DNA from: Methylobacter tundripaludum
GTDB taxonomy: Bacteria > Pseudomonadota > Gammaproteobacteria > Methylococcales > Methylomonadaceae
Direction: 5' to 3'
DNA length: 64,000 bases
Assembly: GCF_002934365.1 (NCBI RefSeq)
Contig: NZ_PTIY01000007.1
Coordinates: 62,001 to 126,000, forward strand
A model generated the notes under the pieces. It was not told where the DNA came from, ran no database searches, and saw nothing but the letters and a program-made list of their open reading frames with translations. The position numbers and the translations under genes were made by a program. This document shows positions 6,514-42,259 of this stretch, one piece after another. Positions within the stretch are counted from its first letter, which is position 1; every line of letters starts with the position of its first letter.

Positions 6514-6527
6514 GGAGTGGTTTAGAT

Positions 6528-6670
6528 GTAGACCGGAATAAGGTCATCCAAGTCTGTCCTGAGCTTGTCGAAAGGGCGCGTAGCGCGAGGTGGCGTTTCC
6601 GGCGAGTTCAGTAGTGTTTGCCGGAAACGCCAGTTCTCGCTGCCGCTCGAATCGGCTTATTCTGGCCTAC
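6528..6670. repeat. Nested palindromic intergenic repeat element
   Basis: This fills most of the 313-base gap between batD and the PIN gene. The outer arms GTAGACCGGAATAAG (6528-6542) and the complement of CTTATTCTGGCCTAC (6656-6670) match at 13 of 15 bases. An inner pair, GGCGTTTCCGGC (6592-6603) and GCCGGAAACGCC (6620-6631), is a perfect 12-base inverted repeat. The left half also holds CCTGAGCTTGTCGAAAG, a motif shared with the repeat at 41066-41156. This looks like a REP- or MITE-like palindrome. No convincing coding frame is present. Confidence 0.6.
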
Positions 6671-6763
6671 GTTACTGATGTAATGAAACTCAACGATCAA
6701 AGCCAATGGTTGACGAGTTGGGCTTTGAGGCGCTCTGCCCAGTTAACGGCTTTTGTTGGTCGA

Positions 6764-23207: not shown

Positions 23208-24005
23208 ATGATCTTGCTTCGGCTATCCGGCATTTATCGTTTTCGCGGTTTTATTTATGAAAGCGTTCGGCGCGAGTTTGCCTCGCGCTATCGAAACTCC
23301 ATGTTGGGCGCTGCTTGGCTGGTGTTGCAGCCTTTGGCGCAAATTTTGGTGTTTACGCTTGTTTTTTCACATGTGATGCGAACGCGTCTGCCCGGGGTTG
23401 ACAGCTCTTTCGGCTATAGCATTTTCCTATGCGCCGGCCTACTAACTTGGGGGCTTTTTGCCGATATTTTGAATCGTAGCCAAAACATGTTTCTGGACAA
23501 TGCTAATTTGCTCAAGAAATTGAGCTTTCCTCGTATCTGCCTGCCTATTATCGTTAGCCTTAACGCTTGTATAGGGTTCGCCATCATTTTTAGCCTTTTT
23601 GTCGGATTTTTGTTGTTCACTGGCAGTTTTCCTGGTTGGGCGTTCTTCGCTATTGCACCGGTTCTGCTGTTGCAAATTCTTCTTGCTATTGGAATGGGCA
23701 TGGTTATTGGGGTGCTCAACGTTTTTTTCCGTGACGTCGGGCAACTTTTCGGCATTGTGTTGCAATTCTGGTTTTGGCTCACACCGATCATCTATCCGCT
23801 TGCCACATTGCCGGACTGGGCGCAGCGTATCGTGATGCTAAATCCCATGACTCCACTGGTGGTGGCCTATCAGGGCATTCTCGTTCAGGGTACGATGCCA
23901 TTGTGGGCTAGTCTATGGCCAACTGCACTATTGGCCTGCATGCTTTGTTTTCTCGGCATGCGTCTTTTTCAAAAGCACGCAGGTGAAATGGTAGACGAAC
24001 TCTGA
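23208..24005 (+). CDS. wzm: Polysaccharide ABC transporter permease (first system)
   Basis: The 265-residue protein has six hydrophobic spans and the ABC-2 layout of Wzm/KpsM permeases. The N-terminal cytoplasmic stretch VRREFASRYRNSMLGAAWLV is characteristic, as are FFRDVGQLFGIVLQFWFWLTP and the end region LNPMTPLVVAYQGIL. It would form the membrane channel exporting a lipid-linked polysaccharide. It ends on the first base of the next gene (TGATG), so it is cotranslated with its ATPase. Confidence 0.92.
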   Translation: MILLRLSGIYRFRGFIYESVRREFASRYRNSMLGAAWLVLQPLAQILVFTLVFSHVMRTRLPGVDSSFGYSIFLCAGLLTWGLFADILNRSQNMFLDNANLLKKLSFPRICLPIIVSLNACIGFAIIFSLFVGFLLFTGSFPGWAFFAIAPVLLLQILLAIGMGMVIGVLNVFFRDVGQLFGIVLQFWFWLTPIIYPLATLPDWAQRIVMLNPMTPLVVAYQGILVQGTMPLWASLWPTALLACMLCFLGMRLFQKHAGEMVDEL

Positions 24006-25339
24006 TGGGTACTATCACTGTTACACAATTAGGTAAGGCTTATCGCCAATACCCTACCCGTTGGTCTCGTCTCATAGAATGGATTATACCGGGACATAAA
24101 CCTCGGCACAGTCTCAAGTGGATACTGCAAGATATTAATTTCAGTGTCTCCCCCGGTGAAGCCGTTGGCGTTATCGGAGTTAATGGCGCAGGCAAGAGCA
24201 CCTTGCTTAAATTAATCACCGGCACTACCCAGCCAACAATCGGTTCGGTGGAGATGGAGGGGCGCGTCGCCGCACTGTTGGAATTGGGTATGGGTTTTCA
24301 TCCCGATTTTACCGGTCGGCAGAACGCCCTGATGGCAGGGCAGTTGCTCGGCTTGCAGGCACATGAAATCGATCTCCTCATGCCGGAAATTGAAGCTTTT
24401 GCAGAAATTGGCGATTACATTGACCAGGCTGTGCGCGTGTATTCTAGCGGCATGCAGGTGCGCCTTGCGTTCGCAGTGGCTACGGCTGTGCGGCCTGATA
24501 TTCTGATTGTGGATGAAGCACTTTCAGTCGGCGACGCATACTTCCAGCACAAGTGTTTTTTAAGAATCCGACGGTTTCAGGACCAAGGCACCACGCTCCT
24601 GTTTGTTTCCCACGACCTTGCTGCTGTTCGAGCCCTTTGTGCTAGAGCCATCTGGCTCGATAGTGGCGCTGTTCGTGAGATTGGTGAAACAAAAGACGTT
24701 CTTGATGCTTACGCAACGGCGCTATATGCCAAGGAACAGGATGTTGATAATGCTGCAAAGCAATCCGCAGTGAAAGACAGTGTAATAAAGGAAGTTTCCA
24801 AACAAAAACGCGATTGCAGACTTGATTTCATAAATAATTCAAATCTGAGAAACGATATCAAAGTTTTTGAATTTAATAAGGATGCGGCCCGCTGGGGAGA
24901 TGGCCTAGCAAAGATTACGCATACCTACCTGCAGGATGCTAATGGAACCCCGGTGAGTTGGATAATCGGAGGGGAAGAAGTGGTGCTTACGATCGAGGCG
25001 TTAGCTTTGCAAGAGCTATGTGGCGTATTTGTGGGGTTTATGGTCAGGGATAAGTTGGGGCAAACTCTTTTTGGCGACAACACTTACCTTACGACAATTG
25101 ATTCACCGGTGACCATAAGAGCGAATCACCGATTTAAAACAACATTTCGTTTCTTGATGCCTATATTACCTCAGGGTACTTATGCAATTACGGCTGCTAT
25201 AGCGGTTGGTACCCAACAAGATCATGTTGCTCATGAGTGGATCAATGAGGCCATTTTTATTGAGTCGCATAACGGATTTGCGGTAAGCGGGCTGGTTGGA
25301 ATACCTATGCATGCTATTGAGATTGGTGAATTCATATAG
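24005..25339 (+). CDS. wzt: Polysaccharide ABC transporter ATPase with C-terminal glycan-binding domain (first system)
   Basis: The 444-residue protein has an ATPase domain with Walker A GVNGAGKST (58-66), signature YSSGMQVRLAFA and Walker B ILIVDEALSVGD. A linker (about 245-285) leads to a Wzt-C-like beta-sandwich of about 160 residues. In known O-antigen systems this domain recognises the modified end of the chain, so export depends on chain termination. The two methyltransferase genes directly downstream are candidates for such a terminal cap; that link is inference. Confidence 0.92.
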   Translation: MGTITVTQLGKAYRQYPTRWSRLIEWIIPGHKPRHSLKWILQDINFSVSPGEAVGVIGVNGAGKSTLLKLITGTTQPTIGSVEMEGRVAALLELGMGFHPDFTGRQNALMAGQLLGLQAHEIDLLMPEIEAFAEIGDYIDQAVRVYSSGMQVRLAFAVATAVRPDILIVDEALSVGDAYFQHKCFLRIRRFQDQGTTLLFVSHDLAAVRALCARAIWLDSGAVREIGETKDVLDAYATALYAKEQDVDNAAKQSAVKDSVIKEVSKQKRDCRLDFINNSNLRNDIKVFEFNKDAARWGDGLAKITHTYLQDANGTPVSWIIGGEEVVLTIEALALQELCGVFVGFMVRDKLGQTLFGDNTYLTTIDSPVTIRANHRFKTTFRFLMPILPQGTYAITAAIAVGTQQDHVAHEWINEAIFIESHNGFAVSGLVGIPMHAIEIGEFI

Positions 25340-25410: not shown

Positions 25411-26100
25411 ATGGATTCAAGTCAAAATTTTCTCACGCCTTACTATCAACGGCACAACCAACGGCGCCAAGAGCACTTGGCTAGTTTAGGATTGCCTATT
25501 GCGGGTAAAACTGTGCTTGAAGTTGGGTCGGGAATTGGAGATCACACATCCTTCTTTATAGACAGAAAGTGCAAGGTTACAAGTACAGACGGGAGGCAAG
25601 AATTACTAGGTATCTTGCAGGAAAGACACCCTCAGGCAGCGACAATTTTATGGAACGTTGAGTTACCCCCTTCTGAATTTATTCCAAAAAGTCAGATCGT
25701 TTACGCATATGGCATTCTTTACCACACAAGAAACCCCCAGTCTGTGCTAGAGAACTTGGCCTCTCTTTGTACTGAAATGTTATTGCTTGAAACATGTGTT
25801 TCTTTTGGTGATGAAGAACTTGTCAATTTAACCAGTGAAACGATTGGTGATCCAACGCAGGCCCTGCAGGGAACTGGTTGCCGTCCAACAAGACCGTGGA
25901 TTTTTAAATCGCTTAAAAATCTTTTTCCCTTTGTGTATTTAACTAGAACACAACCTTGGCACGAGGAGTTTCCAGTCGACTGGACTAATCCTGCCGAAAA
26001 GAATGAGGCGGGTTTAAGCCGTTCAGTTTTTGTTGCCTCTAGAACACAGCTTTGTAATCCTAATCTGTCTACTGAATTGCTTAATTACCAAGGGCGATGA
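25411..26100 (+). CDS. Class I SAM-dependent methyltransferase
   Basis: The 229-residue protein has the SAM-binding motif I VLEVGSGIGDHTSFF (about residues 34-48), an acidic post-motif (STDGRQELL), and motif IV-like IVYAYGILYHTRNPQSVL. It is preceded by an AT-rich 70-base gap with AATGAGGTAA as ribosome binding site. It overlaps the FkbM gene by 4 bases. Its substrate cannot be told; given the neighbouring Wzt with a C-terminal domain, methylation of a sugar or chain end is likely. Confidence 0.82.
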   Translation: MDSSQNFLTPYYQRHNQRRQEHLASLGLPIAGKTVLEVGSGIGDHTSFFIDRKCKVTSTDGRQELLGILQERHPQAATILWNVELPPSEFIPKSQIVYAYGILYHTRNPQSVLENLASLCTEMLLLETCVSFGDEELVNLTSETIGDPTQALQGTGCRPTRPWIFKSLKNLFPFVYLTRTQPWHEEFPVDWTNPAEKNEAGLSRSVFVASRTQLCNPNLSTELLNYQGR

Positions 26101-27293
26101 TAATGGATCCCATGATTTCCTATGCCCAGAACGGTGAAGACGTTATTTTAAAAAGAGTTTTCGGCGACAAGAAAACAGGTTGCTATATTGATATTGGTGC
26201 TTCTCATCCGGAAAATTTGTCTGTTACCAAATATTTTTATGATATGGGGTGGCGAGGAATTAATGTAGACCCTTTAAAAAATAGTATGGAGCTTTTTTCG
26301 CAAAGTAGGCCTGACGAGCTAAATTTAAATGTCGCAATTGATATAGAAAAAGGATTCCTCGATTTTTATGAGATTACTGATTACCCTGAATTGTCAACAT
26401 TCTCTGCGGAAGCCGCAGCGTCTTTATTAGAGGCTGGTCACAAGGTGATTTGTTATCCAGTTGAGAGAATAACGGGAAATGAATTATTTGAAAAATATGT
26501 AGAGAGCCCCGTTGATTTCTTAAAGATAGATGTTGAGGGAAGAGAGCGCGACGTAATCCGCTCAATTGATTTTCACCGATACAGACCTAAAGTCTTAGTG
26601 ATAGAGGCTACAATTCCTAACTCTATTTTTCCTGGATGGGATAATTTTGAATCCATTTTTAACTTCGGGGAATGGGAGCCGATATTGCTGAATAGTGGAT
26701 ATATTTTGGCTTATTTTGATGGGTTAAATAGATTTTACATAAGCGAAGAAAACAAAGAAATGTTGAGCTGTTTTCAAGTAGGTTTATGTCTTTGGGATAA
26801 TTTTTTCATCCATTCGCAAGTTAAGCGTATTGCAGATCTTGAATGGAATTGTGCGGAGAGAATGAAGCAGGTCGAGATGCTGACTGGGATGCTGAAGGAA
26901 TCAGAGACTGACCGTGAAGCGCGAGGGACGCAGGTCGAAACGCTTACGAGGATGTTGGAGGAATCAGAGGCTGATCGTCAAGCGCGAGGGACGCAGGTCG
27001 AAACGCTTACGAGGATGCTGGAGGAATCAGAGGCTGACCGTGAAGCGCGAGGGACGCAGGTCGAAACGCTTACGAGGATGTTGGAGGAATCAGAGGCTGA
27101 TCGTCAAGCGCGATGGACGCAGATTGAAACGCTTACGAGGATGCTGAAGGAATCAGAGACTGACCGTCAAGCGCGAGGGACGCAGATCGAAACGCTTACG
27201 AGGATGTTGGAGGAATCAGAGGCTGATCGTCAAGCGCGATGGACGCAGATTGAAACGCTTACGAGAATGCTGAAAGAGAAGGAGGCTGAGTGA
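26097..27293 (+). CDS. FkbM-family methyltransferase with C-terminal repeat coiled coil
   Basis: The 398-residue protein has an FkbM-type methyltransferase domain (about residues 5-235): SYAQNGEDVILKRVF, CYIDIGASHPENLSVTKYF, FLKIDVEGRERDVIRSIDF. A linker leads to a C-terminal region (about 245-398) built from a 21-residue unit (ESEADRQARGTQVETLTRML), repeated six times with a degenerate first copy. Twenty-one residues are three heptads, so a long coiled coil is expected. It may tether or space the enzyme at the export complex, as coiled coils do in chain-length regulators such as WbdD; that is inference by analogy. Confidence 0.85.
   Translation: MIMDPMISYAQNGEDVILKRVFGDKKTGCYIDIGASHPENLSVTKYFYDMGWRGINVDPLKNSMELFSQSRPDELNLNVAIDIEKGFLDFYEITDYPELSTFSAEAAASLLEAGHKVICYPVERITGNELFEKYVESPVDFLKIDVEGRERDVIRSIDFHRYRPKVLVIEATIPNSIFPGWDNFESIFNFGEWEPILLNSGYILAYFDGLNRFYISEENKEMLSCFQVGLCLWDNFFIHSQVKRIADLEWNCAERMKQVEMLTGMLKESETDREARGTQVETLTRMLEESEADRQARGTQVETLTRMLEESEADREARGTQVETLTRMLEESEADRQARWTQIETLTRMLKESETDRQARGTQIETLTRMLEESEADRQARWTQIETLTRMLKEKEAE
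26898..27275 (+). repeat. Six tandem 63-base repeats inside the FkbM gene
   Basis: Units start at 26898, 26961, 27024, 27087, 27150 and 27213, with a partial unit from 27276 and a degenerate one before 26898. Differences are few (GCG AGG versus GCG ATG G, GAG versus AAG), showing recent duplication. All changes keep the frame. The unit encodes 21 residues, three heptads. Copy number could vary between strains by slippage. Confidence 0.93.
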
Positions 27294-27405
27294 GCGTCGC
27301 TCTTGACTGATTTGCAGGTTTTGTTTGCTCGCATGGGTTGCTGGCGGACTAGATTATTAAGCTGGACAGAAGTAAAGAAATTAGCAGAATGGATCAGAAC
27401 ACCCA

Positions 27406-29052
27406 ATGAATAATCAACTTAGAACTATCGCGGTAGATTTAACCCCCGTTCTGCCCGGTGGAGAGAACGGGGGCGCGAAGATATTCGTGCTCGAATTGCT
27501 GCGCCGCTTGGCGGAAATGTCGCCCCAGACGCAATTTGTATTACTCACGCAAGTGGCATCGCACGAAGAGCTTGCGACATTGGATCGACCCAATATGCGT
27601 CGTCAGATGGTCGTCGGGCAAGTGCTGGCGAATTCCCTACGTCCACGTCTACTAGGCCTGGCTTCCCGTGTTTTGCCTCATTTACCTGGCAGGCTGCGTA
27701 GGGTTGTTAGCCGACTAGGTTACAAAGTGAATGCGATGTTGAAGCGCGGCAGTTCCAGTGCGTTGTTGCGCGACATGGCAGCCGATCTGCTTTTCTGTCC
27801 ATTTACCGCACCTACATATTTCGAGCCGGGGGTTCCGACGGTCTGCACAATTTATGATCTGCAATACAATACCTATCCCGAATTCTTTGCGGCAGAGGAT
27901 GTTGCTAACCGCGAGCGCACCTTTATAGAAGCTTGTCGTCGGGCAACGGTCCTCGCCGCAATATCCGACTATTCGCGGGATTCCGCTATAGCGCATGGCA
28001 ACCTTGCCTCGTCTCGAATACACACCATTTACCTGCGCATGGCTCAACGCATTGCGCCGGGAGTTGAAAACGATAAAGCCATATTGAGGCGTCATAATCT
28101 CACCCCGCAAGGATATCTAATTTATCCCGCCAACTTTTGGAGGCACAAGAACCACGAAATGCTCCTTACCGCCTTTGGTATGGTTAGGCATCAGGGACTG
28201 TCGGTGGATATTAAGCTGGTTTGCACCGGTGCTCCGGGGGCGCGGCAAGACTGGTTGATAAGTGCGGCACACACCATGAATCTGGGTGATCATGTTCTTT
28301 TTCCGGGGTATTTGTCCGATGCAGATTTGGCAACCTTGATAGCCAATTGCAAAGGTGTGGTGTTTCCTTCACTTTATGAAGGTTTTGGTTTGCCGGTCAT
28401 TGAGGCTATGGCTGCGGGTGTTCCAGTGGCGTGCAGCAACACGACTTCACTCCCCGAAGTGGCAGCCGATGCGGCTATTCTATTCGATCCACGCGTTCCA
28501 ACCCAGGTTGCGCAAGCCATGATTGCTCTGGTGGAGAATGAAGCATTGCGTGCACGGTTAATTCAGGCAGGGCAACGTCGCGCAGCTGAATTTTCAGACT
28601 CAGAGTGTATGGCACGGGAATATTGGGAGCTGTTCCAGCATGCTTTGGCCAACGTAAAGCATGAAAATTTGCTGACCGGCGCCTATGCTGATGGCTGGGT
28701 CGGACACTGTTTACACATACAAGTGGCCCCCGCAGCGAACAAACAAACGTTGGCGATTGAATTCTCAGTTCCGGAATGGCTGCCGGAGCGGCGTCTCACA
28801 ATGCAAGTGAGTCTTCATGGAAATCGCCTAGGTGATTCGTTTGTATTCGACCATACGACTAACGCCGCTCTGTCTCTGCCCATAGAGCCTGCCGGGGGGG
28901 GGTACGAAGTCACGATTACTCCGACTTTTGTGCCGGCCTACACAGGCCATGGTAATGATCATCGTGAGCTTTCGGCGATATTGCAGAAATGCGGTATCGT
29001 CCATGCCGATGGCAAATATGACGCATTATTCCCCGAGAAGGTTAACGCATGA
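27406..29052 (+). CDS. Glycosyltransferase family 4 with C-terminal extension
   Basis: The 548-residue GT-B enzyme has a Rossmann-like N-terminal half (TIAVDLTPVLPGGENGGAK, VCTIYDLQYNTYPEFF). The donor-binding half shows FWRHKNHEMLLTAF, VFPSLYEGFGLPVIEAMAAG and TSLPEVAADAA, typical of GT4. After the GT fold (about residue 410) come about 130 extra residues that look beta-rich (LHIQVAPAANKQTLAIEFSV), a domain not recognised. It overlaps the next GT2 gene by 4 bases. Donor and acceptor sugars are unknown. Confidence 0.87.
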   Translation: MNNQLRTIAVDLTPVLPGGENGGAKIFVLELLRRLAEMSPQTQFVLLTQVASHEELATLDRPNMRRQMVVGQVLANSLRPRLLGLASRVLPHLPGRLRRVVSRLGYKVNAMLKRGSSSALLRDMAADLLFCPFTAPTYFEPGVPTVCTIYDLQYNTYPEFFAAEDVANRERTFIEACRRATVLAAISDYSRDSAIAHGNLASSRIHTIYLRMAQRIAPGVENDKAILRRHNLTPQGYLIYPANFWRHKNHEMLLTAFGMVRHQGLSVDIKLVCTGAPGARQDWLISAAHTMNLGDHVLFPGYLSDADLATLIANCKGVVFPSLYEGFGLPVIEAMAAGVPVACSNTTSLPEVAADAAILFDPRVPTQVAQAMIALVENEALRARLIQAGQRRAAEFSDSECMAREYWELFQHALANVKHENLLTGAYADGWVGHCLHIQVAPAANKQTLAIEFSVPEWLPERRLTMQVSLHGNRLGDSFVFDHTTNAALSLPIEPAGGGYEVTITPTFVPAYTGHGNDHRELSAILQKCGIVHADGKYDALFPEKVNA

Positions 29053-29915
29053 AATTCAGTATTGTCACTCCCTCCTATCAGCAAGGACAATTTATTGAGC
29101 GTACGCTGCAAAGTGTTGCCAGCCAGACAGCACCAGGCGTGGAAGTCGAGCATGTGGTTTTTGATGGTGGTAGTACCGACAATACAGTTGAAATACTTAA
29201 ACATTTCAGCCCGGCGGTGCGATGGGAATCAAAAAAAGATAACGGGCAAACCGATGCCGTCAATCAAGGCATCCGTGCCACTGATGGCGATATCATCGGC
29301 TGGCTGAACTCTGATGACATTTACTATCCCGATGCCATTGCCCGTGTAGCAGCCTATTTTAAAGTTAACCCGGAAGTTGACGTGGTCTATGGCATGGCCG
29401 ACCACATCGACCTTGACGACCAAGCCTTTGAAAGTTATCCATCGGAACCCTGGGATTTCGGGCGCCTTCAAGAAACTTGCTTTATTTGTCAACCGGCCTT
29501 GTTCTTCCGGCGGGGAGTAGTTGAGCAATATGGTCTGCTCGATGATTCGCTGAATTACTGTATGGACTACGAATTATGGCTCCGGTTTGGTAAAGCCGGA
29601 GTGCGATTTGGCTATCTTGAAGAGAAGCTCGCCGGCTCTAGATTGTACGCAGATAACAAAACACTAGGGGCGAGGGTAAAAGTGCATAAGGAAATCAACG
29701 ATATGTTCAAAAAGCTACTCGGCAAGGTGCCGGATCGGTGGTTGTTTAATTACGCGCATGCCGTGGTGGAAGCTAAATTAAATCGTAATGCGGCACCAAA
29801 GCGTTTTGTCTTAGAACTCGGATTAAGAGCATTATTCTCCGCCCTGTATTGGAATCGCAGTATTTCTCCGTCGATGCGTAAAGAAATTAAGCGATGGATT
29901 TTTAATCATGAGTGA
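29049..29915 (+). CDS. Glycosyltransferase family 2
   Basis: The 288-residue GT-A protein shows IVTPSYQQGQFIERTLQSV, VFDGGSTDNTVEIL and the metal-binding region GWLNSDDIYYPDAI, followed by the acceptor-side ETCFICQPALFFRR and YCMDYELWLRFGKAG. No membrane span is evident, so it is probably a peripheral cytoplasmic transferase adding one sugar to the growing chain. It overlaps its neighbours on both sides, indicating tight coupling. Confidence 0.9.
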   Translation: MKFSIVTPSYQQGQFIERTLQSVASQTAPGVEVEHVVFDGGSTDNTVEILKHFSPAVRWESKKDNGQTDAVNQGIRATDGDIIGWLNSDDIYYPDAIARVAAYFKVNPEVDVVYGMADHIDLDDQAFESYPSEPWDFGRLQETCFICQPALFFRRGVVEQYGLLDDSLNYCMDYELWLRFGKAGVRFGYLEEKLAGSRLYADNKTLGARVKVHKEINDMFKKLLGKVPDRWLFNYAHAVVEAKLNRNAAPKRFVLELGLRALFSALYWNRSISPSMRKEIKRWIFNHE

Positions 29916-30610
29916 GTTTTTTACTTTCTCGTTATCGTATCGGCGGCGCTGTCGTGACTTTTGATTTACTTTGTACCTTTTGTTCTGGTGAAAGTCTAAA
30001 ACAGTTGGTGGAACATTTTTTGGTATGGATTCAGCCGATTCTTGTTAATTATCCTCTGGCGGCTCCATTAGTGTTTATTGGGGTGCATACTCTTATGGCT
30101 GTTTTCTTCTTGCCTTGCTCTCCAATGACGCTGATGGCCGGAGTGTTATGGGGCGGCGGATATGGGTTGGTCGTGTCCATATGCGCGGCGATGGCGTCTT
30201 CAGCAACAACGTTTTTTTTGTCTCGCAGCTTCTTGCACGGCAAGATTGAAAAAGTACTTGTGCAGCGCTATCCGAAAGTAGCAGGAATGTTGGTGCAAGC
30301 GGTCGTCCATGACTGGAAACTTATCGCCGTTTCGCAGCTGAACCCATTGATACCTGCATCTACAATGGGTTACGTTTTCGGCCTAAGTCGGATTACTTTT
30401 ACACGGTATCTTATGTTTTCCGGAATATTCATGCTGCCTCTTCAGGCTCTGTTTGTGATGACTGGGCATTCGGTAACGAGCATATTTACAGCTGACGGGC
30501 ATTGGGAAATAGCTTTAGCGTTGATTCTCCTTGTTCTCACCGTGCCATTGGTAACCAAACGTATTTATAGAAAACTTTGTCAATTATTTGGAGTTAAAAA
30601 TGGGGCGTGA
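29912..30610 (+). CDS. VTT/TVP38-TMEM64 family membrane protein
   Basis: The protein of about 232 residues starts at GTG 29912, overlapping the upstream stop. Five to six hydrophobic spans are visible. The VTT (DedA-like) core is present: VFFLPCSPMTLMAGVLWGGGYGLVV, and VSQLNPLIPASTMGYVFGLS with the amphipathic reentrant pattern. DedA and related proteins have been shown to recycle undecaprenyl phosphate or move polar lipids; which lipid this branch handles is not known. It overlaps the downstream GT2 by 11 bases. A VTT-GT2 pair recurs at 53155-54614. Confidence 0.82.
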   Translation: MSFLLSRYRIGGAVVTFDLLCTFCSGESLKQLVEHFLVWIQPILVNYPLAAPLVFIGVHTLMAVFFLPCSPMTLMAGVLWGGGYGLVVSICAAMASSATTFFLSRSFLHGKIEKVLVQRYPKVAGMLVQAVVHDWKLIAVSQLNPLIPASTMGYVFGLSRITFTRYLMFSGIFMLPLQALFVMTGHSVTSIFTADGHWEIALALILLVLTVPLVTKRIYRKLCQLFGVKNGA

Positions 30611-31580
30611 GTTAGCCAAGGTTTCTGTGATTTTGTCATTTTACAACGAGCGATCGGTACTTCCTGAATTGCTGCAGCGGTTAAGGGCGGTTTTTTCCAC
30701 GCTGATAGCAAACAAAGACGTAGGGTCGTATGAATTTATTTTTGTTAATGACAACTCAACCGACGAGTCCGAGAAATACCTGCGATCCGAATTGAAGAAT
30801 GGCGACATAGTGCTTATTAATATGTCTCGTAATTTTGGTGTTTCGGAATGTGTTATGGCGGGAATGACTCATGCTACCGGTGATGCAGTGATTTATATGG
30901 ATGCCGATTTGCAAGATCCACCCGAGGTAATTTTTCAGCTTATCAATGCTTGGCAGGCGGATGATGAGGCGGAAGTCGTCTACACCACGCGAACCCGTCG
31001 TGAAGGCGAGCATTGGTTGAAAATGCTCGTAACAAAGATTGGATATCGGTTCATTAACGCCATTTCGGAAATTGAATTGCAAGTTGATTCAGGGGACTTT
31101 AAGCTCCTGTCTCGACGCGCGGTCGATAATCTTCTTCAGTTGAAAGAAGATAAGCCATACATGCGTGGGCTTGTCAGCTGGATTGGTTTTAAGCAGGTCC
31201 CGGTGTTTTATGAGCGGTTAGAGCGATTCGATGGTCGCGAAAATACCAAGATGAATGTTTTGAGCAGGAAAGTAATCTATTATTGGCTTGACCGGGCATT
31301 GATCTCTTTCTCGGATGCGCCACTCAAGTTGATGCTTTTTTCGGGTTTTGGCTTGTCCATAATTTCATTTTGCTACATATTTGTTGTGTTTTTACAAAAG
31401 ATATTAGGGGTCTCGGTACCCGGTTGGGCGGCAATTATGTCCGCCATACTCTTCTTAGGTAGCATACAGATAATGATGCTTGGTTTTATCGGGCTATACA
31501 TAAGTGCGATATTCAAGGAATCAAAGCGACGTCCGCGGTACATTATCAAAGAAGTACTCCGGCCGGCTGATGCAGGTTAG
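30600..31580 (+). CDS. GtrB/DPM1-like membrane glycosyltransferase family 2
   Basis: ATG 30600 with GGAG at 30590-30593 is preferred over the upstream TTG at 30588, giving 326 residues. The GT-A domain carries VILSFYNERSVLPELL, FVNDNSTDES, YMDADLQDPPEVI and the QVDSGDFKLLSRRAVD region typical of polyprenyl-phosphate glycosyltransferases. Two C-terminal TM helices (about residues 240-262 and 272-300) match GtrB. Such enzymes transfer a sugar from its nucleotide to undecaprenyl phosphate on the cytoplasmic face. The overlapping VTT gene suggests a linked lipid-carrier step. Confidence 0.88.
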   Translation: MGRELAKVSVILSFYNERSVLPELLQRLRAVFSTLIANKDVGSYEFIFVNDNSTDESEKYLRSELKNGDIVLINMSRNFGVSECVMAGMTHATGDAVIYMDADLQDPPEVIFQLINAWQADDEAEVVYTTRTRREGEHWLKMLVTKIGYRFINAISEIELQVDSGDFKLLSRRAVDNLLQLKEDKPYMRGLVSWIGFKQVPVFYERLERFDGRENTKMNVLSRKVIYYWLDRALISFSDAPLKLMLFSGFGLSIISFCYIFVVFLQKILGVSVPGWAAIMSAILFLGSIQIMMLGFIGLYISAIFKESKRRPRYIIKEVLRPADAG

Positions 31581-31851
31581 TGCTACTTTCGGAACTATTA
31601 CGCGCCATTTGTCGTCAAAATTTGCCCCACCTCCCTCGGTAGGTTAAAATTAACAAAGTAAGTAAGGTATAAGTAGCTATGAATAGGCGTTATTCTTATT
31701 ATCGCTACATGCGTATATGTTCATGGTGAGGGATTTCGGTCTCATTGCAGTTTAGTTCACCTGTTTCAAGTCACTTTTTTCATTACAGCCATGTCAGGGG
31801 TTAGATGTCTGCCATGGTAGTGTTGTTATGTTTTATAACCGGATGGTAATA

Positions 31852-33378
31852 ATGGATGTTTTGTTCGTCAATCCCGACTCTTCAGCTAAGGCTTATCAAG
31901 GGCTGGCAAAAGTTTATTCGGCAATAGAGCCGCCAACATGGTCTCTGTTATTAGCAGAGTCCTGTCGTTCGAAGGGGTTTGGGGTTGGTATTCTTGACTG
32001 TGATGCGGAAAGGTTGTCTCTTGAGCAATCGATACAAAGAGTCCAGGACTTAAAACCTCGTCTTGTTGTCTTCGTGGTTTACGGACAAAATCCAAATTCC
32101 GGAACTACAAGCATGATTGGTGCATTAGCAATGGCAAATGCGCTCAAAGATCACCACCCTGAACTTCCGATTTGTTTTGTTGGGTCTCATACCAGTGCGC
32201 TCCCAATGGAAGTGCTCTCTTACGACTGTGTCGATATTGTGTTGCTCAATGAAGGCGTATACGCCTTGCACAATCTTCTTAAGAGCAATCTGGGCGAAGA
32301 TTTGCAACATATCAAGGGGATTGGATACAAAAGGCGAGACGCCTCAAACGCCAGAATTCCTACGCTCAACCCGCCACAGGCGATAGTGCCGCAGGATCGG
32401 ATGGATCACGACTTGCCGGGCTATGCTTGGGATCTCCTGCCTTACCGGGAAAAGCCGTTAGATCTCTATCGCGCGCATTTTTGGCATGCAGAATTTGACC
32501 ATGATAAGCGAACCCCTTTCGCAGCGATATATACCTCGTTGGGTTGTAATTTCGGCTGTAATTTTTGCATGATCAATATCGTTAATCGCGCCGACAACGG
32601 CGATGATGTTAATGCAGCAGATTCTCGTGGGATGCGCTTCTGGAGCCCTGAATGGGTAAGCCGTGAGATGCGAAAACTCGCAGATATGGGTGTGCGCACC
32701 CTGCGAATCAGCGACGAGATGTTCTTTTTAAATCGCAGATACTATGCCCCGATACTTCAAGAGGCCATTGATCAGGATTTTGGTTTCAACATGTGGACCT
32801 ATTCCCGCGTCGATACGGTTCGTAAAGACGCGCTCGACCTGTTCAAGCGTGCAGGGGTTAACTGGCTCGCGCTTGGCGTTGAAGCAGGCAACCAATTAGT
32901 TCGCCAAGAAGTATCGAAAGGCTCCTTCCAGGAAGTCAATATTCGCGACGTCTGCAAAACGATTAATGATTCCGATATCAAAATAATCAGCAATTACATT
33001 TTTGGATTCCCTGAAGACACTATGGAGACCATGCAAGAAACATTGGATCTTGCACTGGAACTCAATACCGAAATGGCAAATATGTACCCTTGCCAAGCAT
33101 TGCCCGGCAGCCCGATGTACAACATCGCCAAGAAAAACGGCTGGGCTTTACCTGACTCCTATGAAGGTTATGCTTTCTTGTCATATGAAAGCCAACCCCT
33201 ACCGACCAAATATGTCAGCTCAGCGGATGTCTTGAGGTTCCGTGACGAAGCATGGCAAAAATACTTTACCAATCCCGCTTACCTAACGCTTGTTGAGCAA
33301 AAATTTGGCGCAGTCGAAAGAAAAAATATCGAAGATATGGCCAGCATCCACCTTAATCGTAAAATCCTGGGTGATTAA
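31852..33378 (+). CDS. B12-binding domain radical SAM protein
   Basis: ATG 31852 gives about 508 residues starting MDVLFVNPDSSAKAYQG, the usual opening of a B12-binding domain; ATG 31828 is an alternative. The B12-binding-like domain (about 1-150) lacks DxHxxG, as in many class B radical SAM methylases. The radical SAM domain has the cluster motif C-x3-C-x2-C (GCNFGCNFCMIN, cysteines at about 232, 236, 239), followed by TYSRVDTV and LGVEAGNQ. Likely reactions are methylation at unactivated carbon, or another radical rearrangement. It is followed 6 bases later by the hddA-like gene, so a sugar-related substrate is likely but unproven. Confidence 0.82.
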   Translation: MDVLFVNPDSSAKAYQGLAKVYSAIEPPTWSLLLAESCRSKGFGVGILDCDAERLSLEQSIQRVQDLKPRLVVFVVYGQNPNSGTTSMIGALAMANALKDHHPELPICFVGSHTSALPMEVLSYDCVDIVLLNEGVYALHNLLKSNLGEDLQHIKGIGYKRRDASNARIPTLNPPQAIVPQDRMDHDLPGYAWDLLPYREKPLDLYRAHFWHAEFDHDKRTPFAAIYTSLGCNFGCNFCMINIVNRADNGDDVNAADSRGMRFWSPEWVSREMRKLADMGVRTLRISDEMFFLNRRYYAPILQEAIDQDFGFNMWTYSRVDTVRKDALDLFKRAGVNWLALGVEAGNQLVRQEVSKGSFQEVNIRDVCKTINDSDIKIISNYIFGFPEDTMETMQETLDLALELNTEMANMYPCQALPGSPMYNIAKKNGWALPDSYEGYAFLSYESQPLPTKYVSSADVLRFRDEAWQKYFTNPAYLTLVEQKFGAVERKNIEDMASIHLNRKILGD

Positions 33379-33384
33379 TAAACG

Positions 33385-34380
33385 ATGATTATCACACGAA
33401 CCCCGTTCAGAATTTCTTTTTTTGGTGGCGGCACCGACTATCCAGGTTGGTATCGGGAACACGGCGGCGCGGTATTAGCAACTACTATCGACAAATATTG
33501 TTATATTACATGCCGTCGTTTGCCGCCGTTTTTCGAGCACAAGCATCGCATTGTTTACTCTCACATCGAAAACGTTTGCCATAACGATGAAATCCAGCAT
33601 CCCGCAGTGCGGGCAGCGTTTAATTGGGCTAATGTTGTCGAGGGGCTGGAGGTTCACCATGATGGCGATTTGCCTGCGCGTTCAGGCTTAGGTTCCAGCT
33701 CCGCTTTTACCGTAGGCTTGGCGCATGCATTGTATGGCCTTAACGGTAAAATGGTTAGCCAAGACACGTTGGCGAAAGATGCTATTCATATTGAACAAAA
33801 CATCATCGGCGAGAATGTCGGCTCGCAAGATCAGGTTTCGGCAGCATACGGCGGACTCAACCGCATTGATTTTCACCGAGACGACTCCTTTGATGTGGCC
33901 CCGATCATTCTTCCCGAACACAGACGCGAAGAGCTTCGTGACCACCTTATGCTTTGCTTTACCGGCTTCTCCCGCATCGCCGACGAAATTGCGAAATCCA
34001 AGATCGACAACCTCAAAAATCGCGAAACGGAACTCAAGTGCATGAGGGAAATGGTTGACGAGGCTATTGCCATTCTTACGAACATTGACGTCAGTATTGA
34101 CGAGTTTGGCAAACTGCTCGACCTAAGCTGGAAATACAAACGCAGCCTATCAGACCGGGTTTCAACCCGGGAAATCGACCAGATTTACGATCAAGCTATG
34201 CGCGCCGGTGCAATCGGCGGCAAGATTCTTGGCGCCGGCGGCGGTGGATTTATGCTGCTTTTCGCAAAACCCGATAAACATGCCGCAATTCGCGAAGCCC
34301 TTAAAGACTTGGTGCATGTATCTTTCAATTTTGATGATTCCGGCAGTCGTGTCGTACTTTATCAACCCAACGGCCTGTGA
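33385..34380 (+). CDS. hddA: GHMP-family sugar kinase, HddA-like (heptose-7-phosphate kinase)
   Basis: The 331-residue GHMP kinase shows RTPFRISFFGGGTDYPGWY at the N-terminus, the ATP loop RSGLGSSSAFTVGLAHAL, and GGKILGAGGGGFMLLFA near the C-terminus. This pattern fits D-glycero-alpha-D-manno-heptose 7-phosphate kinase (HddA); fucokinase-like relatives share it. GmhA and HddC genes in the same operon favour the heptose role: HddA would form heptose 1,7-bisphosphate. The phosphatase (GmhB) needed next is not in the window. Confidence 0.78.
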   Translation: MIITRTPFRISFFGGGTDYPGWYREHGGAVLATTIDKYCYITCRRLPPFFEHKHRIVYSHIENVCHNDEIQHPAVRAAFNWANVVEGLEVHHDGDLPARSGLGSSSAFTVGLAHALYGLNGKMVSQDTLAKDAIHIEQNIIGENVGSQDQVSAAYGGLNRIDFHRDDSFDVAPIILPEHRREELRDHLMLCFTGFSRIADEIAKSKIDNLKNRETELKCMREMVDEAIAILTNIDVSIDEFGKLLDLSWKYKRSLSDRVSTREIDQIYDQAMRAGAIGGKILGAGGGGFMLLFAKPDKHAAIREALKDLVHVSFNFDDSGSRVVLYQPNGL

Positions 34381-34383
34381 TTG

Positions 34384-35340
34384 ATGAATAAAACAGATAA
34401 AATCTTTGTTGCCGGACACACCGGCTTAATCGGCTCGGCCGTTGCCCGGCGCTTGCAAAACCAAGGATATGACAATTTGCTGTTGGCCGGTCATGCTGAG
34501 CTGGAACTGACCGATGCCGTAGCAGTGGATCGTTTTTTTGACGAGCACTCGCCTGATTATGTGGTACTGGCTGCTGGCAGAGTCGGCGGCATTATCGAGA
34601 ACCAGACCTACCCGGCTGATTTTATGAACGCCAACTTGGCGATTCAATTAAATGTACTGAAGGCGGCGCACCGCTCGGGTGTGCAAAAACTGATCCTGTT
34701 TGCATCCTCCTGCATGTATCCGCGCGAATGCCCGCAACCGATGGCGGAGACAGCGCTGCTATCAGGACATCCCGAGCCGACCAGCCTTGCCTACGCAATT
34801 TCGAAACTGGCCGGTATGCAAATGTGTCTCGCCTATAACAAGCAATATGGTGAGCAACGATTTATTCCAGTGATCCCTAATAGTGCTTTCGGCCCCAACG
34901 ATAATTTTGACCCAAAATCAGGACACGTCCTCTCGTCATTGATCCGTCGCTTCCATGAGGCGCAGCAAACTGGCGTAGAAAGTCTGACTCTTTGGGGTAG
35001 CGGCACACCGCGTCGTGAATTTATCCATACCAACGATATTGCCGACGCCTGCATCGCGCTGCTCACCGGGGACACAACCGCGCTTGAACTGCCCCTAAAT
35101 TTGGGAACCGGCAGAGATTTTTCCATTCGTGAGTTGGCTGAAACCATTGCCGGCGTAATCGGTTATTCCGGGACCATCGAATGGGATACAAGCAAACCCG
35201 ACGGCGCCCCAAGAAAATTACTCGACAGCAGTCGGCTTCGCGCCTTTGGTTGGCAACCGGCTGTAAATTTTGAAGAAGGCGTTAAAGACACCTATCAGTG
35301 GTATCTCGACAATGCATTGAGTACGGAGACCCGCTCGTGA
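34384..35340 (+). CDS. fcl: GDP-L-fucose synthase family epimerase/reductase
   Basis: ATG 34384 is chosen over TTG 34381, giving 318 residues. Features are NADP-binding VAGHTGLIGSAVARRL, FASSCMYPRECPQPM, catalytic YAISK, PNSAFGPNDNFDPKSGHVL and GTPRREFIHTNDIADA, all typical of Fcl/WcaG. The known reaction is 3,5-epimerisation and 4-reduction of GDP-4-keto-6-deoxymannose. No gmd is present, and the neighbours make GDP-heptose, so a 4-keto-heptose substrate, as for the Campylobacter and Yersinia 6-deoxy-heptose reductases, is a reasonable alternative. Confidence 0.8.
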   Translation: MNKTDKIFVAGHTGLIGSAVARRLQNQGYDNLLLAGHAELELTDAVAVDRFFDEHSPDYVVLAAGRVGGIIENQTYPADFMNANLAIQLNVLKAAHRSGVQKLILFASSCMYPRECPQPMAETALLSGHPEPTSLAYAISKLAGMQMCLAYNKQYGEQRFIPVIPNSAFGPNDNFDPKSGHVLSSLIRRFHEAQQTGVESLTLWGSGTPRREFIHTNDIADACIALLTGDTTALELPLNLGTGRDFSIRELAETIAGVIGYSGTIEWDTSKPDGAPRKLLDSSRLRAFGWQPAVNFEEGVKDTYQWYLDNALSTETRS

Positions 35341-35342
35341 AT

Positions 35343-36155
35343 ATGAGTCCTATCGATCTACGCGAGAAAGCGCATTGGGTCTGGAGAGAAACATTGGCGG
35401 TACATCGCCGGGCTCCGGAAACCCGTTTGGCTTCATCGCTCTCGTCCATCGAAATTTTCGTAGCGCTTTACTATGGCGGCGTGCTGCGTTTCGATCCCAC
35501 ACAGCCGCTTGCCGAACATCGGGATCGTTGCGTTATCAGCAAAGGGCATGGTTCAATCTGCATGTACCCGATTCTGGCTGACTTGGGCTATTTCCCGCTT
35601 GACGAATTGAAACGAGTCTGCCAAACCGGCAGCTTTCTGGGCGGAATACCGGACCCGGTGATTCCAGGTTACGAAACCGTCAACGGCTCGCTGGGCCACG
35701 GCGTGGGTGTTGCGACCGGTATGGCTTTAGGCTTGAAATGCAAAGGCAGCGATCGCAGCGTGTTTGTCGTGTCAGGCGACGGCGAATTACACGAGGGCGC
35801 AAACTGGGAAGCGATCATGTTCGCTTCGCAACATAAGCTCGATAATCTGCACCTCATCATTGATGACAACCGGATCAGTATGCTCGGCTACACAGACGAC
35901 ATTGTTAGCCACGGCTCGCTCTCCGCTCGTTTATCAGCTTTCGGCTGGGATTGCCTTGAAGTCGACGGACACGATGTCGCAGCCGTGCAGGCAGCCCTGC
36001 TGAAAATGAAAAAAAACCGCGCAGGAAAACCTAAAGCACTGATAGCCAGGACCTTGAAAGGACACGGTGTGCCCGGCCTGGAAAACGCCCCGCTTTCGCA
36101 CATCATGAACCCTAAACCGGAGCTGATTGACAGCTTGCTGGAGCAAAACCCATGA
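35343..36155 (+). CDS. Transketolase-like protein, N-terminal (ThDP-binding) subunit
   Basis: ATG 35343 (or GTG 35337, overlapping the fcl stop) gives about 270 residues. The ThDP/metal motif is clear: VSGDGELHEGANWEAIMFA followed by LIIDDNRI. Other transketolase marks are CVISKGHGSICMYPILAD and GSLGHGVGVATGMA. It covers only the pyrophosphate-binding half; the next gene encodes the rest, so the pair forms a split transketolase. Possible roles are supplying sedoheptulose 7-phosphate to GmhA, or transferring a two-carbon unit onto a keto sugar. Confidence 0.88.
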   Translation: MSPIDLREKAHWVWRETLAVHRRAPETRLASSLSSIEIFVALYYGGVLRFDPTQPLAEHRDRCVISKGHGSICMYPILADLGYFPLDELKRVCQTGSFLGGIPDPVIPGYETVNGSLGHGVGVATGMALGLKCKGSDRSVFVVSGDGELHEGANWEAIMFASQHKLDNLHLIIDDNRISMLGYTDDIVSHGSLSARLSAFGWDCLEVDGHDVAAVQAALLKMKKNRAGKPKALIARTLKGHGVPGLENAPLSHIMNPKPELIDSLLEQNP

Positions 36156-37117
36156 GCATTAAACCTCTTGCGATGCGCGACGTATTGCTCGACCGTATCT
36201 GGAGAGCAATGGCGGAAGACGCGAAGATTTACTTCGTTAGCGCCGATTTCGGCTCCCCGGTTCTCGACAAAATTCGCGCCGATTTTCCTGACCGTTTCGT
36301 CAATGTCGGGATCGCCGAACAAAATCTGATCAACATTTCTGCGGGCTTGGCGCTGGAAGGTTATACCGTCTTCGCTTACGCCATTGCCCCCTTCATTACC
36401 ATGCGTTGCTACGAGCAAATTCGGGTCAGTTTGGCACTGCTTTCTGAAGTGCGGCCGATGAACGTCAATTTGATCGGCGTGGGTGCTGGTTATAGTTATG
36501 TCGTGTCCGGGCCGACCCACCAGTGCTACGAAGACCTTACCCTGATGCGCGCCCTGCCCAATTTCAGAGTGCTTTCACCATCTGACCATATCAGTGCCGG
36601 AGCCCTGTTTGACCGTTGCGCGAGCACTAAAGGTCCAAAATACCTGCGGTTTGATGCCCAAGTGTTGCCCGTAATCTATGAGAACGGCGCTCCAGACTTG
36701 GATGTCGGTTTTCATATTCACAGCACCGGTAAGGACGTTTGCCTGATAGCGACGGGCTACATGCTGCATACCGCTCTCAACGTGGCCGCGAACCTCACCG
36801 CTGCCGGCCATTCGGTCGGAATCATAGACCTTTTCGATATTTCCAATTTTGCCGCAGACCAGCTCCAGGCCGTGCTCTCGTCTTACGCGGGCATCGTCAC
36901 TCTCGAAGAAGGTTTCCGTGGACGGGGCGGTGTCGATTCCATGTTCTTTGAATTCATTGCCCGGCGCGGCCTGTCTACCCGTATGCTCAATATTGGCGTC
37001 GAGGGAGGCTACCGCTTTGAACTCGGCTCACGTGAGGAACTGCACGAGCAGGTAGGAATCGGCCCTCAATCCGTGCTGAGCAGTGTAACAACGTTTGTAC
37101 AATCACTTTCTGATTAA
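36152..37117 (+). CDS. Transketolase-like protein, C-terminal subunit
   Basis: The 321-residue protein has the pyrimidine-binding domain with the catalytic glutamate in VGIAEQNLINISAGLALEGY, then YEQIRVSLALL and GPTHQCYEDLTLMRALPNF. A transketolase C-terminal domain (about 190-315) shows CLIATGYMLHTALNVAANL. It overlaps the N-terminal subunit by 4 bases and is followed 15 bases later by the ColD-type dehydratase. Split transketolases of this kind occur both in central metabolism and in sugar clusters; location here favours a dedicated glycan role. Confidence 0.88.
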   Translation: MSIKPLAMRDVLLDRIWRAMAEDAKIYFVSADFGSPVLDKIRADFPDRFVNVGIAEQNLINISAGLALEGYTVFAYAIAPFITMRCYEQIRVSLALLSEVRPMNVNLIGVGAGYSYVVSGPTHQCYEDLTLMRALPNFRVLSPSDHISAGALFDRCASTKGPKYLRFDAQVLPVIYENGAPDLDVGFHIHSTGKDVCLIATGYMLHTALNVAANLTAAGHSVGIIDLFDISNFAADQLQAVLSSYAGIVTLEEGFRGRGGVDSMFFEFIARRGLSTRMLNIGVEGGYRFELGSREELHEQVGIGPQSVLSSVTTFVQSLSD

Positions 37118-37132
37118 TTTGGTGAAAATAAG

Positions 37133-38302
37133 ATGAAATTTCCTTTGATGCGTAACAACATCCTGCGCGAAGATCTTGACGCAGTAATCGAACATTTGAA
37201 GCAGGACGATCCGATCCTGACTCACGGCGCCAACGTAAGAGCATTCGAAGCTGAATGGTCTGAATGGCTAGGTGTAAAATACAGCGTGTTCGTTAACTCA
37301 GGCGCATCTGCAAACCTGTTGACTATGGCGATACTGAAGATTCGTTACCCGGAAGGAGGAGAAGTCATTACTCCGCCTTTAGCATGGGTTTCGGATGTCG
37401 CATCTGTGCTGCAAAACGGATTCACGCCAGTGTTTGCGGATATTGATCCAACCACCCTGGCGATGGACCCAGCTCAGATTTTGAGCAAAATCACCGATAA
37501 AACGCGGGCGGTGTTCTTGACTCATGTACAAGGTTTCGACGGGCTGACTGACGAACTGATCGATGAACTGCAACGTCGTAATATTCCGCTGATCGAAGAT
37601 GTCTGTGAGTCCCACGGCGCTACCCACAACGGCAAACGCGTGGGCAGCATTGGCTGGATATCGAACTTTTCGTATTACTACGCCCATCATATGAGTACCA
37701 TCGAAGGCGGCATGGTCTGTACCAATGACCCTGATGTCTATCAGCAAGTCCGCATGTTACGTTCTCATGGTATGGTTAGGGAGTCTAACGACGAAAATGT
37801 ACGCGCAGCCTATATAGCTGAATATCCCGAGCTGAACCCGGACTTCATCTTCGCGTACCCAGCCTATAATACACGCAATACCGAGATTGGCGGCATTATG
37901 GGACGCAGTCAGCTTAAACGTCTGGATCAAATCGTCAAACGGCGGACTGAAAACCTGATCCGGTTTTTGGATCAAATCGATTCATCAAAATATCGTACCG
38001 ACTTCAAGTTGGAAGGATCCAGTAACTACGCCTTCAACCTTATTCTGAAAGAGCCGGATGATGCTCTAGTCGAACGCCTCATGCAAAAAATGCGCGAGTC
38101 TGGCGTCGAGTTCAGAAGAGGTAGTGCTGGCGGCGGCAACCAGATTCGTCAACCTTATCTGAAAGGTATTGTGCCTACCGGGCATCATCTTGAGTTCCCT
38201 GAAACGGAACACGTCCATTTCTATGGTTTTTACATCGGCAACTTCCCCGACTTGAAAAATGAGGAAGTAGACGAACTCTGCGCAATTATAAATTCGGTCT
38301 GA
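37133..38302 (+). CDS. DegT/DnrJ-family PLP sugar 3-dehydratase, ColD-type
   Basis: The 389-residue fold-type I PLP protein shows VNSGASANLLTMAIL, EVITPPLAWVSDVASVLQNG, the PLP-phenolate aspartate region LIEDVCESHGA and NTRNTEIGGIMGRSQL. Where aminotransferases of this family have lysine, it reads SYYYAHHMSTIEGG (His185/His186). That histidine replacement is known from GDP-4-keto-6-deoxymannose 3-dehydratase ColD and the CDP-sugar dehydrase E1, which remove the C3 hydroxyl instead of transaminating. A 3-deoxy-4-keto sugar nucleotide is therefore the expected product; the actual nucleotide sugar is inferred as GDP-linked. Confidence 0.85.
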   Translation: MKFPLMRNNILREDLDAVIEHLKQDDPILTHGANVRAFEAEWSEWLGVKYSVFVNSGASANLLTMAILKIRYPEGGEVITPPLAWVSDVASVLQNGFTPVFADIDPTTLAMDPAQILSKITDKTRAVFLTHVQGFDGLTDELIDELQRRNIPLIEDVCESHGATHNGKRVGSIGWISNFSYYYAHHMSTIEGGMVCTNDPDVYQQVRMLRSHGMVRESNDENVRAAYIAEYPELNPDFIFAYPAYNTRNTEIGGIMGRSQLKRLDQIVKRRTENLIRFLDQIDSSKYRTDFKLEGSSNYAFNLILKEPDDALVERLMQKMRESGVEFRRGSAGGGNQIRQPYLKGIVPTGHHLEFPETEHVHFYGFYIGNFPDLKNEEVDELCAIINSV

Positions 38303-38313
38303 GGTAGCGCGCA

Positions 38314-39018
38314 GTGACCTCAGCCGTAATTCTTGCAGGTGGTTTGGGCACACGTCTTCGTAGCGCCGTACCGGACTTACCCAAACCAATGGCGCCGATC
38401 AGCGGGAGGCCGTTTCTTGAGCACCAGCTCGACTACTGGATTAAACAAGGGATCAATCGATTTGTACTATCCGTTGGCTATCGATATGAGGTGATTGTTG
38501 ATCACTTTGGCAATCGGTATAAGGATGCCGAGCTTGATTACGTGATTGAGGAAACCCCGCTTGGTACGGGCGGTGGACTCTTGTTGGCCGCAGAAAAGGT
38601 CAGCAAGGACGAATCGTTTTTGCTGCTGAACGGCGACACCTATTTTGCTGTGGACTTGAAGACATTGATCGAATTTTCCTTGGCAAACGACGCGGATTGG
38701 TGCTTCTCTTTGTTTCGCACTCATGAGGAAGGGCGATACATGGGGATGGATGTTTCGCCGCAAGGGCAAATTGTCTCACTCAAGTCAGGTACTGGCCGAC
38801 CAGGCCAGCTGGCAAACGGAGGCGTGTATTGGGTTAACCCGCGCGCCTTACTCAATGAACGATTTTCACCAGGCGACAAGTGTTCTCTGGAAGACGACAT
38901 TTTCATGACTGCCATGGTTTCAGGCCAGCGCCTATTGGGCGTTGAGTTCTCGGGCGCGTTCATTGACATTGGCGTGCCTGATGACTATCATCGTGCACCA
39001 GAGCTACTTTCGTCATAA
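38314..39018 (+). CDS. hddC: D-glycero-D-manno-heptose 1-phosphate guanylyltransferase-like nucleotidyltransferase
   Basis: The 234-residue nucleotidyltransferase starts at GTG 38314 and shows VILAGGLGTRLRSAVPDLPK, PFLEHQLDYWIKQGI, EETPLGTGGGLLLA, LLNGDTYFAVDL and FIDIGVPDDYHRA. Length and pattern fit HddC, which forms GDP-D-glycero-D-manno-heptose; glucose-1-phosphate nucleotidyltransferase relatives are similar. The adjoining gmhA and the nearby hddA support the heptose reading. Confidence 0.85.
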   Translation: MTSAVILAGGLGTRLRSAVPDLPKPMAPISGRPFLEHQLDYWIKQGINRFVLSVGYRYEVIVDHFGNRYKDAELDYVIEETPLGTGGGLLLAAEKVSKDESFLLLNGDTYFAVDLKTLIEFSLANDADWCFSLFRTHEEGRYMGMDVSPQGQIVSLKSGTGRPGQLANGGVYWVNPRALLNERFSPGDKCSLEDDIFMTAMVSGQRLLGVEFSGAFIDIGVPDDYHRAPELLSS

Positions 39019-41427: not shown

Positions 41428-42249
41428 ATGATTACTTCAACGCAAACAACGCTGACTTTTGTTCAGTTTTTTCGCCAAGTGCTTCATCATCGTGACATGA
41501 TTCTTGCGTTAGCTGTTAGAGATTTACAAAGCAGATATGTAGGTACGTTAGGCGGGCTTATTTGGGCATTTGTTCATCCTCTTGCGATAGTTTCTGTTTT
41601 CTATTTTGTTTTTGCAGTTGGCTTTCGAGCGCAAGGGCCAGGTAGCACCCCATTTATTCTCTGGTTCGTGTGTGGTTTGATCCCTTGGTTCCTCTTCAAT
41701 GACACACTGTTAGCGATTACAAACGCTATTACCGGCAATGCGCATCTGGTTAAGAAAACTATTTTTCCAACCGAAGTCCTGCCGTTGGTACACGTTATCT
41801 CCAGTCTCTTTCCGCATTTGATTTTCATGCTGACTTTGGTTGGGATGTTGGTTTTCTTCAACGTTCCTTTTTTAGTCGAGCGTCTATTCGTTGTCTATTA
41901 TTTGCTATGCACGATTACGCTGGTACTTGGTTTGGGCTGGTTACTATCAGCACTACAGGTTTTCTACCGAGATATAGCCCAAGCGCTCACTATAATGCTC
42001 AACTTATGGTTCTGGGTAACGCCTATTGTATGGTCGCAGGAGATTGTCCCGCCAGAGTATCGCAGCCTGTTGTCTTTCAATCCTATCTTCTATATTGTTG
42101 AAGGCTATCGTGGCTTGATGATTTATAAAACAGCTGTATGGCCAAGTTTACAAGAAACGGCTTGTTTTTGGAGCATTACCCTGATTGTTCTTTTTGTGGG
42201 TATCTATGTGTTTCGCCGATTAAAGCCTGAGTTCGCCGATGTTATATAG
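41428..42249 (+). CDS. wzm: Polysaccharide ABC transporter permease (second system)
   Basis: The 273-residue Wzm/KpsM-type permease has the cytoplasmic lead ALAVRDLQSRYVGTLGGLIW, six hydrophobic spans, the FYRDIAQALTIMLNLWFWVTP region, and FNPIFYIVEGYRGL near the end. It is related to the permease at 23208 in layout but clearly different in sequence, so it is a separate system rather than a recent copy. The last codons overlap the open frame of its ATPase partner. Confidence 0.92.
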   Translation: MITSTQTTLTFVQFFRQVLHHRDMILALAVRDLQSRYVGTLGGLIWAFVHPLAIVSVFYFVFAVGFRAQGPGSTPFILWFVCGLIPWFLFNDTLLAITNAITGNAHLVKKTIFPTEVLPLVHVISSLFPHLIFMLTLVGMLVFFNVPFLVERLFVVYYLLCTITLVLGLGWLLSALQVFYRDIAQALTIMLNLWFWVTPIVWSQEIVPPEYRSLLSFNPIFYIVEGYRGLMIYKTAVWPSLQETACFWSITLIVLFVGIYVFRRLKPEFADVI

Positions 42250-42259
42250 CCAAGAAACT

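Follow-up and report, generated by a model that had tools for sequence, protein, structure and literature searches.

In the characterised systems of Klebsiella pneumoniae the chain terminator is carried on a coil protein, and a coil-bearing terminator has been taken as a marker of this assembly strategy (PMC11231755). Coil length sets chain length in Escherichia coli O9a and K. pneumoniae O12 (PMC11231755, PMC5082667). The ruler of WbdD measures about 20 nm (PMC5082667), and the C-terminal region of the protein combines an amphipathic helix with a site for recruitment of the polymerase (PMC11231755). The length of surface polysaccharide chains influences how bacteria interact with their surroundings, and the ruler idea is so far based on coils engineered in a few enteric bacteria.

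We analysed a stretch of 64,000 nucleotides from Methylobacter tundripaludum (contig NZ_PTIY01000007.1, positions 62,001 to 126,000), hereafter the window. It carries a gene that we read, with a probability of roughly two in three, as encoding the putative chain terminator of a Wzm/Wzt-exported polysaccharide, in which a methyltransferase would cap the chain and a coil would measure it. The surrounding cluster runs in the order manC-like gene, wzm, wzt, a gene for a 229-aa methyltransferase, the gene for the FkbM-coil protein, GT4, GT2, a gene for a VTT-domain protein and a second GT2, and the members located below are all on the forward strand. Wzm, the permease (23208-24005; Pfam ABC2_membrane, 1.6e-25), and Wzt, an ATPase with a C-terminal carbohydrate-binding domain (24005-25339; ABC_tran plus Wzt_C at residues 294-432, 2.6e-31), identify by Pfam an ABC-dependent export system at 23208-25339. 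An earlier note on this DNA had placed the FkbM gene just after wzt; in fact the gene for the second SAM methyltransferase (25411-26100) intervenes, its Methyltransf_12 match (3.1e-6) lying slightly below the curated cut-off. Downstream lie the GT4 gene (27406-29052; Glycos_transf_1), a candidate polymerase or polymerase partner, and the two GT2 genes (29049-29915 and 30588-31580; Pfam). Scanning for promoters and terminators gave fewer promoter-like sites than in shuffled sequence and a weak excess of terminator-like sites. The host is probably a methanotroph, because its genome contains two AMO/PMO matches.

Two further regions of the window were noted. On the 3' side of the glycosyltransferases, genes for a B12-binding radical SAM protein, a GHMP kinase, a split transketolase-like pair, a DegT aminotransferase and a nucleotidyltransferase (31828-39015) suggest an unusual activated sugar. 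Two sulfotransferase-like proteins come after a second Wzm/Wzt pair, again with Wzt_C (41428-48914). In the second of them (45192-48914, 1240 aa), a weak match to sulfotransferases precedes about seven near-identical domain repeats with the motif GYNLIAYAGRVWAVEMTAGSLDFANADVVEDWL, linked by short coil segments, and the protein ends in a basic C-terminus; only two weak matches (28%) were found in other Methylomonadaceae genomes. It may be a further case of a cap enzyme with a spacer made of repeats, here with globular units.

The open reading frame at 26097-27293 (+) is uninterrupted and encodes 398 aa. Residues 32-203 match Methyltransf_21/FkbM (PF05050; E 3.4e-20) at 73.3 bits, against a curated Pfam cut-off of 22.7, and the DIGA and FLKIDVEG motifs fall at columns that are conserved across 37 sequences. 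The head, a putative cap enzyme with a high-confidence predicted fold, spans 26097-26810. A fold search with the model of the FkbM-coil protein returned only generic SAM methyltransferases, with TM scores that are low because the helix makes up a large share of the model. A plasmid search found FkbM proteins at 32-41% identity and none closer.

Behind the head lies the repeat array. Tandem Repeats Finder reports a period of 63 bp at 26867-27272 (6.4 copies with 90% matches; score 637); at a period of 126 bp the matches rise to 96%. Repeat analysis resolves six full in-frame units of 63 bp, each encoding 21 residues or three heptads (26868-27245), and a partial seventh unit of 15 codons (27246-27290). 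Unit 1 is the most divergent and shares 51-56 of 63 bases with the others, while units 2-6 have 56-62 of 63 bases in common. No exact repeat within the array exceeds 80 bp, a length that an assembly from short reads could bridge, and the copy number is probably, though not certainly, correct. A single heptad register runs through the tail, which is predicted to form one long helix from residue 239 to residue 398 of the frame (26811-27290). In an AlphaFold model of the read-through protein the helix runs without a break from residue 239 to residue 412; pLDDT exceeds 90 up to about residue 320 and is about 50 past residue 350. With a rise of 0.15 nm per residue, the repeats alone are predicted to extend for about 21 nm, and the whole helix as far as the stop for about 24 nm. 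The putative cap enzyme would be separated from the glycosyltransferases by a long predicted helix, with GT4 encoded next and fused to it in relatives. The heptad core is half hydrophobic and half polar, with R-V/I-L and R-L-S at its a/d positions. The COILS-style score of the tail, 1.36, lies within the range of composition-matched shuffles, which average 1.28 and reach 1.43. A coiled coil is argued for by the unbroken predicted helix and the conserved heptad register, and not by that score. Of what the earlier note had claimed for this gene, the FkbM methyltransferase and the six near-identical units of three heptads are borne out, with the partial unit to be added; its predicted coiled coil agrees with the continuous helix and the register and gains nothing from the COILS-style score.

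Directly after the last repeat the frame is closed by a TGA (27291-27293, +). Read past in frame, the sequence continues for 39 residues (27294-27410, +) to a TAA that overlaps the GT4 start. Local alignment showed this segment to be a conserved C-terminal module, putatively a membrane or polymerase anchor: against the C-terminal end of the coil protein of G127, which is encoded upstream of the same GT4 as that of the window, it scores 98, where shuffles gave 21.9 +/- 4.2 and none of 5000 scored as high. The ends of the coil proteins of G221 and G055 are also matched, more weakly than that of G127. By analogy, the module is the positional counterpart of the anchor and recruitment region of WbdD and may have the same function. 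The TGA removes it, and the ruler in this genome may therefore be untethered; barring read-through or sequence error, it is probably left without a C-terminal anchor. The stop may be a mutation, a sequence error or a codon that is read through. For a codon-position selection test, the post-TGA segment is too short and its alignment is offset by a one-codon gap. Re-initiation was considered and rejected: the nearby GTG is in another frame and reads only six codons, so that the module would not be restored. In a set of FkbM-coil proteins from Methylomonadaceae (L159-L164, L166 and L167), the coil mostly ends in an SxSWRxTxPLR-like stretch, followed by a region that finishes near LSxxAxxIYxxLK; this C-terminal module is recurrent and different from that of the window.

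The stop raises the alternative that the gene is decaying, its anchor cut off and the strain deprived of length control or of its O-chain, which would be compatible with a cap-and-ruler role in intact relatives. The module that can still be read in frame past the TGA fits such decay, as does the coil protein of G061, which likewise has no C-terminal module. The motifs of the FkbM head are kept, however, the repeats are open, and wzm, wzt and GT4 are intact. The TGA itself may come from a sequencing error or be passed by read-through. We regard decay as somewhat unlikely.

The origin of the coil can be followed through its neighbor. The GT4 of the window occurs in 6 of 237 Methylomonadaceae genomes and is 61-72% identical in the five others. 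The repeat sequence has matches in only two other genomes of the 237, each time immediately 5' of this GT4, and the coil DNA is 68% identical to that of G061 and G127, the same level as the GT4 gene. In G061, G055 and G221 the coil sits on an unrelated methyltransferase head, and GT4 is 65-66% identical to that of the window; the Wzt of these clusters differs strongly from the window's, as do Wzm and the second methyltransferase where they were read. By these sequence comparisons, the coil belongs with the downstream GT4 and not with the putative cap enzyme. Base composition also changes at the junction. The head has 36.6% GC and a GC3 of 33% (computed on 26097-26852), and GC rises from 36.6% to 55.3% at the coil (coil GC3 60%; repeat region 55.6% GC, GC3 60%), a contrast that is inflated because the units of the array are copies of each other. 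In the simplest reading, we infer a chimeric gene: a cap cassette of low GC would have been joined at the coil start to a resident coil-GT4 unit.

We then ask whether coil-tailed FkbM proteins keep company with polysaccharide export. Among the other FkbM loci of Methylomonadaceae, all 9 that are coil-tailed lie within about 3 kb of wzt, as against 2 of the 18 that are tail-less (Fisher p 1.2e-5, a value that ignores kinship); a single clade may account for part of the association. In 6 of the 9, the next gene on the 3' side encodes a GT4. In L031 (a Burkholderiaceae MAG) and L032 (Bradyrhizobium cytisi), FkbM, coil and GT4 form one polypeptide, and these fusions adjoin ABC exporter genes that include a wzt with a C-terminal domain. 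A general link across phyla found no support: in a survey of 80 FkbM loci from many phyla, with 6-kb flanks and some short contigs, coil tails were not enriched beside Wzm/Wzt (6/38 vs 7/44). An FkbM-coil protein alone therefore does not imply a cap-and-ruler role.

These linkages bear on the possibility that the coil is a scaffold, which would tether an O-methyltransferase to the GT4 complex while FkbM methylates within the chain and length is set elsewhere. Co-inheritance of coil and GT4, and their fusion in relatives, would suit tethering as well as ruling, and outside Methylomonadaceae the FkbM-coil architecture is not linked to ABC export. A simple tether would not be expected to show either the association of coil and wzt within Methylomonadaceae or the large, heptad-locked variation in length described below, and we consider the scaffold unlikely. 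Still less probable is that the 229-aa methyltransferase is the true cap enzyme, which the FkbM-coil protein would only position. Its gene is directly 3' of wzt, and 56%-identical homologs occur in the clusters with the L031 and L032 fusions. Yet it has no coil, whereas the terminators of K. pneumoniae sit on the coil protein (PMC11231755), and within the flanks examined none of the 9 other FkbM-coil loci of Methylomonadaceae has such a neighbor.

The Wzt C-termini closest to that of the window are mostly followed by coil-bearing proteins. In 6 of 6 such coil proteins (L147, L148, L149, L151, L153 and L155) the N-terminal head is Methyltransf_24 by Pfam. On this ground, and given the different type of carbohydrate-binding domain in L031 and L032, co-evolution of the cap with the carbohydrate-binding domain is not supported. 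One of these proteins, of 1630 aa and encoded after Wzt (L148, 1695-6584), joins Methyltransf_24, coil, RgpF and WsaF_C domains.

Repeat periods in the coils keep to the heptad. In the coil tails of Methylomonadaceae, the period is a multiple of 21 bp in 8 of the 10 arrays with a score of at least 50 (binomial 6e-6 against an expectation of 1/7). The same holds elsewhere for 11 of 12 proteins of the FkbM-coil type and for 8 of 9 other coil proteins linked to Wzt; the exceptional periods are 66 bp (G150), 270 bp (G039), 75 bp (L034) and 159 bp (L151). Weak two-copy arrays count for little here, because heptad coding itself favors similarity at 21 bp. Strong arrays are less exposed to this objection, for example that of L154, with 23.4 copies of a 42-bp repeat in a coil-bearing protein of 1481 aa encoded shortly 3' of Wzt (2272-6714). 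Two genomes of one genus (G029 and G053) have near-identical heads and tails, and their coils differ by a net gap of 21 residues, which falls in two pieces (5 + 16) and is accompanied by smaller gaps. The shortest coil in Methylomonadaceae has about 38 residues (G073) and the longest about 490 (G039). A neutral expansion of the array without functional effect would fit its near-identical units, which are what recent duplication should give. It is very improbable, since arrays that arose independently in many genera hold to the heptad register and to the same position in the protein.

In the cap-and-ruler reading, the FkbM head would methylate the non-reducing end of the growing chain, and Wzt would recognize the methyl cap. 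The helix would self-associate and hold the head about 21-24 nm from the membrane glycosyltransferases, so that capping would be limited to chains long enough to reach it. Gain or loss of units that preserves the heptads would reset the distance between head and glycosyltransferases. Such a role, raised in the earlier note, is favored by the gene order in Methylomonadaceae, the FkbM-coil-GT4 fusions beside Wzm/Wzt, the co-inheritance of coil and GT4, and the heptad-multiple periods with varying coil length; the note had missed the intervening methyltransferase, the chimeric junction and the TGA that removes the putative anchor. The ruler function itself is drawn by analogy. Two results fit a strong version poorly, namely the lack of enrichment across phyla and a carbohydrate-binding domain that does not track the head. 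A wider proposal, which we advance tentatively and with the odds somewhat against it, is that coils of Wzt-linked cap enzymes are rulers adjustable in evolution through heptad-locked repeats, and also that the coil start is an exchange site at which cap cassettes, FkbM or other methyltransferases, are placed before a conserved coil-polymerase unit. If this is true, heptad-locked repeats and the swapping of caps at the coil would account for a separate evolution of cap chemistry and chain length. In Methylomonadaceae the gene order stays the same while the coils differ widely in length, a natural series that makes the prediction of the ruler testable on the O-chains of existing strains.

Among described systems, three invite comparison. 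WbdD (E. coli O9a and K. pneumoniae O3; methyltransferase-only in E. coli O8) is alike in domain order: it has an N-terminal methyltransferase cap, a long coil that sets chain length and a C-terminal region that binds membrane and polymerase, with Wzm and a Wzt bearing a carbohydrate-binding module alongside (PMC3482155, PMC5082667, PMC11231755). Membership of the WbdD family was rejected: the FkbM-coil protein of the window has no match to solved WbdD among PDB sequences up to E 1; its head is assigned by Pfam to FkbM (PF05050) only, with no kinase domain found. Its coil, moreover, is built of near-identical 21-residue repeats, and its C-terminal module is cut off by the TGA. WbbB (K. pneumoniae O12) and ORF6 (K. 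pneumoniae O7) unite terminator, coil and polymerase glycosyltransferases in one protein, like the L031 and L032 fusions; they differ in the chemistry of the cap, which is Kdo in O12 and methyl-phosphate in O7, and in glycosyltransferase types, and in the window GT4 is a separate gene. The E. coli O101/O162 protein, according to the accessible text of its report, is a methyltransferase with a C-terminal coiled coil and a proposed ruler (PMC13168486); it is likened here by domain layout and not by methyltransferase type, and that text reports no repeat array (PMC13168486). In the literature covered, which excludes the 2019 chain-terminator survey that PMC11231755 cites, we found no FkbM chain terminator and no repeat-built coil. 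Judged from sequence, the system is a probable variant of the WbdD-type terminator-ruler strategy and not a WbdD homolog, set apart by its putative FkbM cap, its repeat-built coil and its chimeric make-up.
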